Of a stretch of 32,057 nt of DNA, positions 1 to 31,243 are shown in pieces. The translations under genes and the position numbers were made by a program. Below the pieces are notes generated by a model. It was given only the letters and a program-made list of their open reading frames with translations. It had not been told where the DNA came from and did not search any database. The stretch is taken from contig JAHFNJ010000003.1 in NCBI GenBank assembly GCA_023267375.1, positions 92,579 through 124,635 on the forward strand, read 5' to 3'. This stretch comes from Candidatus Nomurabacteria bacterium. Its GTDB lineage: Bacteria; Patescibacteriota; Minisyncoccia; Phycocordibacterales; UBA9973. Position 1 is the stretch's first letter. Each line of letters opens with the position of its first letter.

Positions 1-517
1 TTTTCTTCCCTTTGTAAGTACGCGTCAACTCTGAGTCACGCTTTTTGATAAGTTCTTTTACTGTTTTAATTGGTAACGATAGATACACCACCAAATCAGG
101 CCGAGGAATGCCGAAAACTCCGTACTCCATCTTGTCGAGCCATTCCAAGAAATCTCGACGTTTCTTTGCATTTTTTATCTTCCCGCCTTGATGAATCTGG
201 TTGGCAGAAACATAACGATTGGCAATAACCACGTAACCTTTTTTAAGCCAGCCCTCGATTTCATCTTTTGATTCCCAGCGATCCGCTGCATAGAAAATCG
301 AAGCAATTTTTGGATGGAGATTTTTAAAATTGTAACGCTGTTCAGTGAGGCAATGACCGACAAATTCTCCAAAGAAGTGCTTTCCATATTCAGGAAAATC
401 CACAATCTTTACCGTTTTCCCCTCTTTTACGAGGCGCTTCCGCAAAAGCTCCACTTGGGTCGCCTTTCCAGATCCGTCGGTTCCGTCTATTACAATCAAC
501 TTCCCGCTTTTTTTCAT
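1..517 (-). CDS. tmk: Thymidylate kinase, 3' part missing (runs off window)
   Basis: This open frame is not in the ORF track because it has no stop inside the window. It reads from ATG at 517 and gives about 172 residues before the edge. The N-terminus carries a P-loop (GTDGSGKATQ, residues ~11-20), then DFPEYGKHFFG and a substrate/lid region with AADRWESK and ANRYVSANQIHQGG. This is the layout of dTMP kinases, which phosphorylate dTMP to dTDP with ATP in the cytoplasm. The DFPEYG...FFG form resembles the eukaryote-like branch more than the E. coli branch. It is the last visible gene of the glyA-to-tmk operon, 23 bases after the preceding Nudix stop. The assignment is firm; the C-terminus is not visible. 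Confidence 0.93.
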   Translation of the reverse strand, partial: MKKSGKLIVIDGTDGSGKATQVELLRKRLVKEGKTVKIVDFPEYGKHFFGEFVGHCLTEQRYNFKNLHPKIASIFYAADRWESKDEIEGWLKKGYVVIANRYVSANQIHQGGKIKNAKKRRDFLEWLDKMEYGVFGIPRPDLVVYLSLPIKTVKELIKKRDSELTRTYKGKK

Positions 518-14347: not shown

Positions 14348-15109
14348 TCATGAAAATTTAAGTAATAATGGTAAATGGTCTGAAACTTGATCTTGTAAAA
14401 CTTTGAAGTCGAGCACGCCAACATTGGGAGATACCAGCACATAGTCCGCAAACTTTTCTTCACCAGTGTAAAATCCGCTTCGGGTAGAAATCGCTCCGTA
14501 TTCCGTAATAAGGTTCCTCATTCCTTCTTCCAACAGCGCAATACTCTTGCCATCAGGCTTCAAATTAAAATCCCCGCAAAGGATTTTTTTGCCTTTTTTC
14601 TTACTCAAGAAATCTTTTATGATTGTCGATTGGAGAATTCTTTCAGGGGTATCAACTTTCTTTGTCCCCTTCTGCCAGAGACCATGGAGATTCGCTATAG
14701 TCAGAATCTGGTTGCTGTATTCAATATCAACCCACTCCACATTACCTGTTACCTTCCCTCCCTCAACTGTGTTCATCGGGACTTCATCATAACAAAGAAA
14801 GCCCCCATCTGCTGTTACAGTGATGCCTTTTCTCACAAAAATCGCCTGTCCAGCACCAAAAAATATCGATTCGTGTTGAAAATGTTTACTTGGAGAAATT
14901 CTTTTATGGGAATTAAAATCAACGAGTATAGTTTTAATTTCCGAAAAAAGATTGCCCCGCGCTCGGTCACCTGGAGTGAAATCCGGAATATCGCCAAAGA
15001 GCATCTCTTGAAAACAGAAAATATCGGTGTCTTTTGCGTGCGTTTTTATGAACTCCATCAAGGGCTCGTACACGATACCGCCCCAGAGATTTAAAGTGAT
15101 TAGTTTCAT
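14348..15109 (-). CDS. Endonuclease/exonuclease/phosphatase (EEP) family protein, copy 1
   Basis: A 253-residue EEP-fold phosphoesterase. Landmarks: MKLITLNLWGG at the N-terminus (metal Asn), IFCFQEM (metal Glu), ILTIANLHGLW, ILCGDFNLKPDG (GDFN, catalytic Asp/Asn) and FADYVLVS plus VSDHLPLLLKF (SDH, catalytic Asp-His). All active-site elements are present, so it should be an active Mg2+-dependent nuclease or phosphatase. No signal peptide is seen. A second copy at 16200-16952 shares the same layout and many residues, with murB between them, indicating a local duplication. Substrate unknown. Confidence 0.85.
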   Translation of the reverse strand: MKLITLNLWGGIVYEPLMEFIKTHAKDTDIFCFQEMLFGDIPDFTPGDRARGNLFSEIKTILVDFNSHKRISPSKHFQHESIFFGAGQAIFVRKGITVTADGGFLCYDEVPMNTVEGGKVTGNVEWVDIEYSNQILTIANLHGLWQKGTKKVDTPERILQSTIIKDFLSKKKGKKILCGDFNLKPDGKSIALLEEGMRNLITEYGAISTRSGFYTGEEKFADYVLVSPNVGVLDFKVLQDQVSDHLPLLLKFS

Positions 15110-16199: not shown

Positions 16200-16952
16200 C
16201 TACGATAAAGAAAATTCTAAATACATAGCATTATGGTCTGAAACTTCTTCTGGGAGTATCTTAAAATCTTTAACTTCTACCCCTTTTGTAATCAAAGCAT
16301 AATCAGCAAAGCGTTCTTCTTTTTTATAATGCGATGTCCTCGTGGAAGTAATACCATATTCTTTAACAAGATTCCGAAAGCCGAAATCTTCAACAATCTT
16401 TAAACTTTCAGTATCTGGCCTTAAATTAAAATCGCCACATAAAACCACTTCCCCCTCAAGACTTTTTAGAAATTCAACAATTTTCCTTGACTGTGCAACC
16501 CTACTTTCGGAGTCAGTCTTCCCTTTTCCATTCCATAAACCGTGGAAATTGACTATACTAACTTTTTTACTGTTTATTTCAGTAAGAACATATTGAATAT
16601 TTTTTGATGTTCCGCCTCTGCGAGCTTCCTCAATAGATTCTGTCTGGTGAACAAGTTTTTCTCCCTCTGCGATTATTTGAATGTTCTTTTTGACAAACAT
16701 TGCCAGTCCCCAGAAATCTTCAAAATGTGGATAGAAAATTCCTACATGATTTGGCAAAAGCTGAGCAACATAATCAAACAATTGATTATGTATCCCGTCA
16801 TCTTTCCATTCGACATTCGAAAATTTACCATCCGCCTGGTGGTACATTTCTTGAAAACAGAAAATGTCTATACTGTCTTGCTTGCTCTTTAAAAAATGAG
16901 TTAGCTCGGCATGAACTCTGCCACCCCAGACATTAAGTGAAATTATTTTCAT
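16200..16952 (-). CDS. Endonuclease/exonuclease/phosphatase (EEP) family protein, copy 2
   Basis: A 250-residue paralogue of the EEP protein at 14348-15109. Shared features include MKIISLNVWGG, IDIFCFQEMYHQ, VSIVNFHGLWNGKGKTDSE, VVLCGDFNLRPDTESL, FRNLVKEYGITSTRTSHY, ERFADYALIT and VSDHNAMYLEF. All catalytic elements of the fold are intact. The two copies differ across most of the middle, so the duplication is not very recent. Its -10 (TGATATAAT, extended) ends 6 bases before the ATG, the same layout as thyA. Function beyond a phosphodiesterase/phosphatase fold is unknown. Confidence 0.85.
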   Translation of the reverse strand: MKIISLNVWGGRVHAELTHFLKSKQDSIDIFCFQEMYHQADGKFSNVEWKDDGIHNQLFDYVAQLLPNHVGIFYPHFEDFWGLAMFVKKNIQIIAEGEKLVHQTESIEEARRGGTSKNIQYVLTEINSKKVSIVNFHGLWNGKGKTDSESRVAQSRKIVEFLKSLEGEVVLCGDFNLRPDTESLKIVEDFGFRNLVKEYGITSTRTSHYKKEERFADYALITKGVEVKDFKILPEEVSDHNAMYLEFSLS

Positions 16953-16967: not shown

Positions 16968-17012
16968 AAACTATCGTCTAGCCATCAGATTTAATCTAAT
17001 CCACAGGGGTTG

Positions 17013-17042
17013 TTGACACCGACACCGGTGTCGCCATATACT
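17013..17042 (+). promoter_or_regulatory. Strong promoter with palindromic operator in the spacer
   Basis: Perfect -35 TTGACA (17013-17018), 18-base spacer, TATACT (17037-17042). The spacer contains a perfect 14-bp palindrome CGACACCGGTGTCG (17020-17033), the right size and place for a dimeric repressor. The predicted start near 17049 coincides with the base of the first stem of the candidate RNA. Confidence 0.75.
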
Positions 17043-17048
17043 GGGGGT

Positions 17049-17197
17049 ACATCAAACAACTCCAAAACTGCCGGCGGTTCGCCTCCTGTTGTTTTTGTTG
17101 TTTGGTGTAAAAATGAGAAAAGCCACCTCTAGCTAGAAAGTGGCCTTCTCTAACACAGTGGATTAAAGAACAATTGTTGATCAAACAATTGTTTTTT
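17049..17197 (+). ncRNA. Candidate ~149-nt non-coding RNA (ncRNA-A)
   Basis: Three stem-loops fill the stretch. The first is a 12-bp stem, ACATCAAACAAC (17049-17060) with GTTGTTTGGTGT (17097-17108), one G-T pair, enclosing a GGCG-GTT-CGCC hairpin. The second is GAGAA-GCCAC with GTGGC-TTCTC (17115-17150). The third is a terminator, AACAATTGTT (17169-17178) and the same sequence (17184-17193) around GATCA, then T6. The promoter is near consensus and has a palindromic operator. No ORF with a start signal lies inside. SRP, 6S, tmRNA and RNase P signatures are not seen. Confidence 0.7.
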
Positions 17198-17219
17198 AAT
17201 TATGACAACAGCGTGAGTG

Positions 17220-17378
17220 CTACATCACACCATGTACCGGACAACACGGAGGCCATGATTTTAAACCATAATCTCGTGCGTCTTTACATACTCCGTTTGG
17301 ACAAAGCACCCTGAGGCATTTCATCGGCAAGGAGCAAATTGGACATGCTTGATTGCACGTAAATTTATATACTTTCAT
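17220..17378 (-). CDS. Small Cys-rich protein, 52 residues
   Basis: This ORF is too short for the track. It reads MKVYKFTCNQACPICSLP, then KCLRVLCPNGVCKD, and ends WPPCCPVHGVM. Eight Cys (8, 12, 15, 21, 26, 31, 45, 46) and one His within 52 residues suggest one or two zinc or iron-sulfur knuckles, or disulfides. There is no hydrophobic signal. It lies downstream of nrdB and ncRNA-B on the same strand. A weak TTGCCT-16-TATAGG promoter may lie about 70 bases upstream; no SD is visible. The Cys pattern is far from random, so I think it is coding, but I know no family for it. Confidence 0.55.
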   Translation of the reverse strand: MKVYKFTCNQACPICSLPMKCLRVLCPNGVCKDARDYGLKSWPPCCPVHGVM

Positions 17379-17536
17379 ATAAGGAATATTCTGTATCGGT
17401 AATTTTAGTTAAGAGTTCGATCACTCTCCCACACGTCCCCTATATTAATTGCAAAAGGACAGGCAAACTACCCAGCTATTTGTAAATCCGATTTTCTAAA
17501 GCTTTACTGATCTATACCAGTAGGGGTAATCGGTAA

Positions 17537-17766
17537 ACAAAAAACACCAAAAATTCTCTGCACAGCGCTGGACAAGTGTTCGGAATTGATTTCTCTCTTC
17601 CTAAACTAATCCCAGTGGAAGCTGGAACATGATTATTCATCTTGTCCCAGCACCGTGCAAAACTTTCTTGGTGTTGTTACGGTTAGCTGATAATGGCTGT
17701 GCCTCCTTTTTATGTTTGGAACTTCCAATTCCAAACAGGAGAAAAACTTATTTATTTTTCAAACCT
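17537..17766 (-). ncRNA. Candidate ~230-nt structured non-coding RNA (ncRNA-B)
   Basis: On the minus strand a strong promoter (17773-17800) is followed by a 5' hairpin (GTTTGGAA/TTCCAAAC, 17714-17736, extended by CTCCT/AGGAG), then a large three-way junction. The closing stem is 23 bp: 17653-17675 pairs with 17543-17565, with 2 mismatches and a few G-U pairs. Inside are a 13-bp hairpin (17621-17651, one mismatch) and a longer interrupted hairpin (17568-17615). The closing stem runs directly into TTTTTTGTTT, so it doubles as a terminator. Frames are short and broken. It is not a family I recognise. Confidence 0.72.
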
Positions 17767-17824: not shown

Positions 17825-18832
17825 TTATTGGTTCTCTTCTTTCTTTTTAGTGGTGTTATGTCCATGAGCGTCCACTTCGTAGGAGGTGTTTTGTGCCTCA
17901 AAGAAATTCACCAATTCATACACATCTGTCGCGCCAGCCATCCATTTTGCAGGATTCGTTGCATTATAGTGCTTTGGCATACCGAGCTCTTCAAGACGAC
18001 GGTCAGCGACGTATTTTACATATTGGTTCACGTAGTCAGCATTCAAGCCAAGAATACCTCGAGGGAAAAGATCCACGTTGTAGGCAACTTCAAGATCCAC
18101 GCCATCGATAACGATTTGGCGGATTTCATTCGCGAATTCTTCGGTGAGCAATTCTGGATTCTCTTCGAGAATATTGTGGATGAGGTTAATACCGAACTGG
18201 AGGTGTAGTGATTCATCGCGGAGCACCCAGTTGATCATTGAGCCGAAATTGCGGAGCTGATTGCGCTGACGGAACGAGAGTGCCACCATAAATCCTGAGT
18301 AGAACCAGACGCCTTCCATGACAATGTTTGTAGCCACCAAGTTTCGAACGAAGTCCTTCTTCCCTTCTGGAGTCTCAATATTGAGAGAATCTTCCGTCAT
18401 GCGCTTCAAATATTTATTGATGAATGCTTCCTTATTCACCATCGATGGGGTAACGATGTGTGTATTAAACACAGTCTCACGGTCAAAAGGAAATGTTTGG
18501 AGTACATATTCGAATGATACGCAGTGGTTTGCTTCTTCAAACATCTGCTTAGCGAGATAGAGGTGACATTCTGGGGATTTGAGGTATGGATACACACCAA
18601 GCGCCAACGAGCGATTCACAATAAGTTCAGCAGGATTGAAGAATGCCATCAGGAATTTCACCGCATGGCGTTCATCTTCAGTCATTTTGCGCCAGTCTTC
18701 CAAGTCTTCACCGAGAGCGATTTCGTGTGGGAACCACGTATTGCGGACTGCCTGGTTGTAAAGATCATACGCCCACTGATAGCGTATGGGATGCAAATTC
18801 ATATCTTCTGGTGAAGCTTTTCCGAGTAACAT
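17825..18832 (-). CDS. nrdB: Ribonucleotide reductase small subunit, class Ic-like (NrdB, R2)
   Basis: A 335-residue ferritin-like R2 that supplies the radical to NrdA for NDP reduction. Metal ligands by pattern are E69 (FNPAEL), E100 and H103 (FEEANH), E173 (IVMEGVW), E207 and H210 (RDESLH). Spacing matches Chlamydia trachomatis R2c with a constant offset of 20 (E89, E120, H123, E193, E227, H230). The residue at the radical-tyrosine position is Phe (F107, codon 18512-18514), as in R2c F127, and the first ligand is Glu instead of Asp. This predicts a tyrosyl-radical-independent Mn/Fe cofactor. The gene follows nrdA by 104 bases. Confidence 0.95.
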   Translation of the reverse strand: MLLGKASPEDMNLHPIRYQWAYDLYNQAVRNTWFPHEIALGEDLEDWRKMTEDERHAVKFLMAFFNPAELIVNRSLALGVYPYLKSPECHLYLAKQMFEEANHCVSFEYVLQTFPFDRETVFNTHIVTPSMVNKEAFINKYLKRMTEDSLNIETPEGKKDFVRNLVATNIVMEGVWFYSGFMVALSFRQRNQLRNFGSMINWVLRDESLHLQFGINLIHNILEENPELLTEEFANEIRQIVIDGVDLEVAYNVDLFPRGILGLNADYVNQYVKYVADRRLEELGMPKHYNATNPAKWMAGATDVYELVNFFEAQNTSYEVDAHGHNTTKKKEENQ

Positions 18833-30927: not shown

Positions 30928-31011
30928 GCGCAGGTGGCGAAACTGGTAGACGCACTACCTTGAGGTGGTAGCGGGAGCAATCCTATGGGAGTTCAAATCT
31001 CCCCCTGCGCA
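30928..31011 (+). tRNA. tRNA-Leu (GAG)
   Basis: Acceptor GCGCAGG/CCTGCGC, anticodon stem CTACC/GGTAG with loop TTGAGGT (anticodon GAG), a long class II variable arm and T-arm GGGAG-TTCAAAT-CTCCC, discriminator A. CCA is not encoded. Confidence 0.95.
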
Positions 31012-31019
31012 CAAAAAAC

Positions 31020-31047
31020 AAAAAAGGTACCTGCGTACCTTTTTTGT
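31020..31047 (+). terminator. Intrinsic terminator of tRNA-Leu
   Basis: AAAAAAGGTAC, loop CTGC, GTACCTTTTTT. Directly after the tRNA. Confidence 0.9.
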
Positions 31048-31060
31048 TTACTTGGGCGAG

Positions 31061-31155
31061 CCGCAATGATGCCGCTTTGCGGCCATGAGGCGGGGTCGCG
31101 AGTACTTAGTCCGCGCAGAGTGTACTCACTTGAGCAGACTTAGTAACTCGTGACC
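31061..31155. repeat. Pair of structured inverted-repeat elements before rplS terminator
   Basis: First hairpin 31061-31093: CCGC [6-base internal loop] GCCGC-TTT-GCGGC [loop] GCGG. Second element 31094-31155: arms 31094-31111 and 31137-31155 pair along most of their length (GGTC...CGAGT...AGTC with GACT...ACTCG...GACC) around a 25-base loop containing AGTG-TACT-CACT. TCGTGACC then recurs 20 bases after the right arm. The stretch is G+C-richer than its surroundings. Confidence 0.6.
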
Positions 31156-31193
31156 ACAGAAAATATTCGTGACCAAATCAACCGAACGCACAT

Positions 31194-31227
31194 AAACAAA
31201 AAACTCCCTCTCGGGAGTTTTTTGTTT
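31194..31227 (-). terminator. Intrinsic terminator of rplS
   Basis: AAACAAAAAACTCCC (31194-31208), loop TCTC, GGGAGTTTTTTGTTT (31213-31227). Fifteen base pairs; follows the rplS stop on the minus strand. Confidence 0.9.
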
Positions 31228-31243
31228 CTTGTCTTATTGTAAG

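Follow-up and report, generated by a model that had tools for sequence, protein, structure and literature searches.

The question raised by this locus is whether a strong-looking promoter in an otherwise nearly gene-free gap drives a regulated small RNA of its own, as proposed in a first-pass annotation. All positions refer to the window, namely the whole stretch of 32,057 nucleotides that was analysed, from a genome of 847,608 bases in 14 contigs. The candidate RNA unit is situated in a gap of 872 bases, bounded by an endonuclease/exonuclease/phosphatase gene (16200–16952, minus strand) and nrdB (17825–18832, minus strand). The sole credited candidate coding sequence in this gap is a 52-aa cysteine-rich ORF (CNQACPICSLPMKCLRVLCPNGVC..., 17220–17378, minus strand), which is convergent with the unit, located downstream of a conserved minus-strand RNA, and would share its terminator region with the unit. 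This ORF showed no NCBIfam match and no relative among plasmids or viral contigs.

Concerning the wider neighbourhood, murB is flanked by two paralogous endonuclease/exonuclease/phosphatase genes on the minus strand (14348–15109 and 16200–16952). The family is sporadic in CPR bacteria, and further members occurred in contigs with the labels Chlamydiae, Legionellaceae, and Alphaproteobacteria; in named genomes, the relatives of the neighbouring nuclease gene belonged mostly to Parcubacteria/Paceibacteria-type CPR bacteria, in agreement with the CPR context assumed in the first-pass annotation. The other tested window genes did not adjoin its homologues, the sole exception being L025, a weak homologue accompanied by a partial methyltransferase match.

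The claimed plus-strand sigma-70-type promoter TTGACA-18-TATACT (17013–17042) proved exact, with TTGACA at 17013–17018, TATACT at 17037–17042, and 11 of 12 consensus positions matched. The pattern TTGACA-16..19-TATAMT occurred once in the window, where 0.04 matches were expected, and TTGACA-16..18-TATAMT yielded ten sites in the 0.85-Mb genome versus one for the reversed control pattern. Among the other nine sites, several coincide with or adjoin genuine units, including rRNA, the tmRNA gene, and genes with short leaders, so that matches of this kind probably act as true promoters in this genome. The promoter of the unit ranks among the strongest-looking of the genome, and its activity is predicted from its sequence; judging from its position, the transcription start is expected at about 17049, 7 nt past the -10 hexamer.

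The perfect 14-bp palindrome CGACACCGGTGTCG reported in the promoter spacer was also found exactly as described (17020–17033), and it represents a candidate operator. Its half-site is additionally repeated directly ahead of the palindrome (GACACC GACACC GGTGTC). A 14-bp palindrome is by itself unremarkable, since the window contains three perfect ones versus about two expected; the chance of one falling wholly within an 18-nt promoter spacer is about 4e-4. The genome-wide search for the palindrome, suggested in the first-pass annotation, returned one exact copy and no second, and the three further sites with two mismatches, versus one for the control pattern, correspond to the chance level. 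Likewise, a regulon in the form of multiple promoter copies of CGACACCGGTGTCG was sought genome-wide and not found. Because the palindrome is single-copy and its near copies occur at the chance level, regulation by an operator is plausible at most. A match to GACACCGGTGTCGCCATA in viral contigs was isolated and without wider similarity, and was therefore rejected as a sign of viral relatives. The same genome holds another near-consensus promoter with an inverted repeat (L086, G000:C4:12849–12878), whose 8-bp arms, ATAGCATA TTTC TATGCTAT, extend from the spacer into the -10.

Folding of the whole unit on the plus strand from about 17049 yielded three hairpins with -56.2 kcal/mol (z -7.3, 0 of 200 shuffles). 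Hairpin 1 (17048–17109, plus strand) consists of a 13-bp closing stem (17048–17060 with 17097–17109, including one G-U) and an interrupted inner stem with a GUUCGC tip. The stem that had been placed at the predicted start is thus real, but it has 13 bp instead of 12, and the start coincides with base 1 or 2 of it. Hairpin 1 alone gave z -5.6 on the plus strand and -2.9 on the minus strand, and this higher stability points to plus as the transcribed strand. Among the three predicted hairpins, hairpin 1 is the one clearly RNA-like domain of the unit.

The other two hairpins require a different interpretation. Hairpin 2 (17115–17150) has a GCCAC...GTGGC core that is followed on the minus strand by TTTTCTCATTTTT, and the terminator scan lists it as minus-strand terminator-like; hairpins resembling it occur at the ends of genes in other genomes. 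Hairpin 2 probably terminates the minus-strand unit containing the 52-aa ORF. Therefore, of the three-stem RNA proposed earlier, the three hairpins do fold, but hairpin 2 fits an opposite-strand terminator better than an RNA domain. Hairpin 3 (17161–17201, plus strand, z -5.9) is a candidate A-T-rich intrinsic terminator with T6 at 17192–17197, placed in its 3' arm. This terminator had been called perfect; the hairpin and T6 are present, but its pairs are nearly all A-T with only two G-C pairs, and hence it is absent from the list of the terminator scan, which requires at least three G-C pairs. Hairpins 2 and 3 are most simply read as a convergent terminator region, in which hairpin 2 serves the minus strand and hairpin 3 the plus strand.

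Coding potential within the unit is small. It holds a 7-codon ATG ORF at 17113 with a weak GGTG upstream, and a 40-codon TTG ORF begins at 17010, upstream of the predicted start point, so that the earlier statement that no start codon with context lies inside is a fair one. The statement that the RNA matches no known family was borne out as well: no covariance score among the Rfam 15 families (6S, SRP RNA, RsaE, and others) reached the gathering level, the chance matches lying far below with E up to 5, and the best score was 24.6 bits for mir-4659 versus a gathering value of 92. A housekeeping or otherwise known RNA was rejected on these grounds, and the tmRNA of the genome is located elsewhere. 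A mobile or repeated element was likewise rejected, as the unit is single copy in its own genome and neither it nor the whole 872-base gap has a relative in phages or plasmids. A riboswitch, leader, or attenuator role is unlikely, since the genes that come next lie on the minus strand and no convincing plus-strand gene follows.

Based on this evidence, we consider that the unit most probably encodes a non-coding RNA of about 150 nt that is transcribed independently and restricted to its lineage, a reading to which we assign a probability of roughly 0.55 and in which transcription is predicted from the sequence. At the sequence level, the promoter, the stable 5' hairpin, the terminator-like hairpin 3, and the lack of an ORF make an independent plus-strand non-coding unit well supported, which upholds this half of the regulated small RNA first proposed; regulation by an operator, the other half, does not go beyond plausibility. 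In the proposed mechanism, RNA polymerase would begin at about 17049 from the near-consensus promoter, the transcript would carry a stable 5' hairpin cap, and termination would occur at the A-T-rich hairpin 3 (17192–17197). Judging from its position, the palindrome is probably bound by a dimeric DNA-binding protein that would thereby occlude the promoter. The RNA would most likely act in trans, through pairing or protein binding. Its 3' end would converge with that of the transcript carrying the 52-aa ORF on the minus strand, which probably terminates at hairpin 2 on the opposite strand. A more specific version, in which the unit encodes a trans-acting small RNA that occurs in this CPR (Paceibacteria-type) lineage alone, is switched by a dedicated repressor at CGACACCGGTGTCG, and shares one intergenic island with a second conserved new RNA family, is tentative and rather doubtful.

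Relatives of the unit were sought at several taxonomic levels. BLAST of the unit against 99 related genomes found no relative, and BLAST of the whole 872-base gap against 147 same-family genomes gave matches only outside the unit. The covariance search proposed in the first-pass annotation recovered nothing besides its source locus in the 147 family genomes with an E-value below 0.01; the model is in effect a single-sequence one and thus insensitive, so that distant relatives may escape it. Extended to 397 genomes of the order, it found no homologue and returned four weak matches (G086, G075, G388, and G511). The two best, G075 after rpoD and G086 after an ORF, are unrelated terminators at gene ends, and those in G388 and G511 are weak or partial. 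A search of viral contigs with the hairpin-2 pattern gave no match. As neither BLAST nor the covariance model found a homologue, there is no sign of selection on the RNA of the unit.

The best-surviving rival explanation, which we nevertheless regard as unlikely, is that hairpins 2 and 3 are merely convergent terminators, of the minus-strand unit with the 52-aa ORF and of the plus strand, respectively; only hairpin 1 would then be plus-specific, and the transcript might be a by-product without a regulatory role. That convergent units could account for these two hairpins as their back-to-back terminators counts against the preferred reading, as do the scarcity of G-C pairs in hairpin 3 and the lack of further operator copies. 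Besides the minus-strand score of hairpin 2, the 52-aa ORF stops at 17220, directly before the hairpins, and the gene-end position of the two best structural matches of the unit model is in line with this rival. What it leaves unexplained is the near-consensus plus-strand promoter, the palindrome in its spacer, and the 13-bp stem at the predicted start.

Another explanation, to which we give little credence, holds that the promoter–palindrome region mainly regulates the divergent endonuclease/exonuclease/phosphatase gene (16200–16952, minus strand) and that the plus-strand RNA is incidental. This gene is divergent to the unit, with TATAAT directly upstream of its start codon and an extended -10 (TGATATAAT) about 60 bp from the promoter–palindrome region. 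However, the palindrome lies exactly between the plus-strand -35 and -10, away from the minus-strand promoter. Least probable of all is premature termination of most transcripts at the inner hairpin of stem 1 (17072–17091) followed by TTTTTGTT, giving an RNA of about 48 nt with the outer stem as a competing antiterminator: the scan lists 17072–17091 as plus-strand terminator-like and this hairpin forms first in growing-chain folds, but the inner stem is weak and mismatched, and nothing lies downstream for regulation.

Returning to the independent small RNA, possible targets were considered. Antisense action on neighbouring gene starts or on the adjacent RNA was rejected, as no convincing duplex was found; the NusG start region reached z -3.4 among 20 crude, unconstrained tests. 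A reading of the CCUCC in hairpin 1 as an anti-Shine-Dalgarno sequence stays speculation, because an evident Shine-Dalgarno motif is missing from the displayed bases of nearly all of the 19 inspected gene starts.

The same gap contains, on the minus strand at 17536–17748, a conserved structured RNA of about 210 nt, present in four genomes of three families. BLAST of the gap aligned this segment with G177 at 84% over about 230 nt, and a model built from the window and G177 sequences recovered the RNA also in G094 and G386, which belong to other families (relatives at L052:1500-1706, minus; L070:1466-1665, plus; and L071:1466-1679, plus). The alignment of the four sequences retains 54 pairs in 94% of cells, whereas sliding the pair partners reduced pairing to about 45%; ten pairs show changes on both sides, a result matched by 0 of 500 shuffles. 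As the structure was derived from the same alignment on which it was tested and the sequences are only four, this covariation is good but not final evidence. Its parts are a 5' domain, the invariant GGCACAGC, a rod that is long and branched, and a T-run at the end; the copy in the window also has a promoter of its own (TTGAAA-16-TATAAT, 17800–17773). Complementarity between the invariant 5' GGCACAGC and GCTGTGC, which lies in the 3' strand of the rod, might allow GGCACAGC to compete with GCACGGTGC for this partner in a switch-like manner.

This adjacent RNA has a very patchy distribution, with 1 of 70 genomes in the G386 family and 1 of 3 in the G094 family; in the class-level sample it was found only in its own genome, and it has no Rfam family match. 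Its neighbours differ among genomes except for a related ORF of about 50 aa after the RNA in G177 and G094 (L052:1139-1300, minus; L070:1761-1904, plus), which shares ICRPFITLRNGK..L.AS.VG..AFCF.VD, with a match of 72% over 32 aa, and for which no relative was found near the RNA in the window or in G386. The adjacent RNA is likely a new, sporadically distributed structured RNA family. Elsewhere in the window, the region 31010–31240, following tRNA-Leu (30928–31012) and its terminator, folds strongly (-96 kcal/mol and z -8.3 on the minus strand). A terminator-like GGGAG/CTCCC hairpin marks the distal end of this region, which has no Rfam match and is possibly another RNA gene.

The open-access literature that we searched yielded general surveys of structured RNAs, but no work on small regulatory RNAs of CPR bacteria. 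A self-contained small RNA candidate whose operator can be tested would be of use provided that it is expressed; at present it is an orphan prediction. The conserved minus-strand RNA is a stronger lead to a new RNA family in reduced genomes than the orphan unit.

Compared with known systems, the unit shares with free-standing intergenic bacterial small RNAs its own sigma-70 promoter, a 5' stem-loop, a putative intrinsic terminator, an intergenic location, the lack of an ORF, and a length within 50–200 nt. It differs from them in having no Rfam family, no conserved seed, and a terminator poor in G-C pairs, and in being known from sequence alone. The palindrome in the sigma-70 spacer resembles promoters repressed by a dimeric regulator between -35 and -10, as in TetR-/MerR-type placement, although here the genome contains no further copy of the site. 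For activation of the MerR type, a spacer of 19–20 bp is normally required; therefore, the 18-bp spacer with near-consensus hexamers suits repression better. Finally, the two A/T-flanked hairpins, each with a T-run on one strand, are similar to back-to-back terminators between convergent genes, to which the unit adds a near-consensus promoter and a third, promoter-proximal hairpin.
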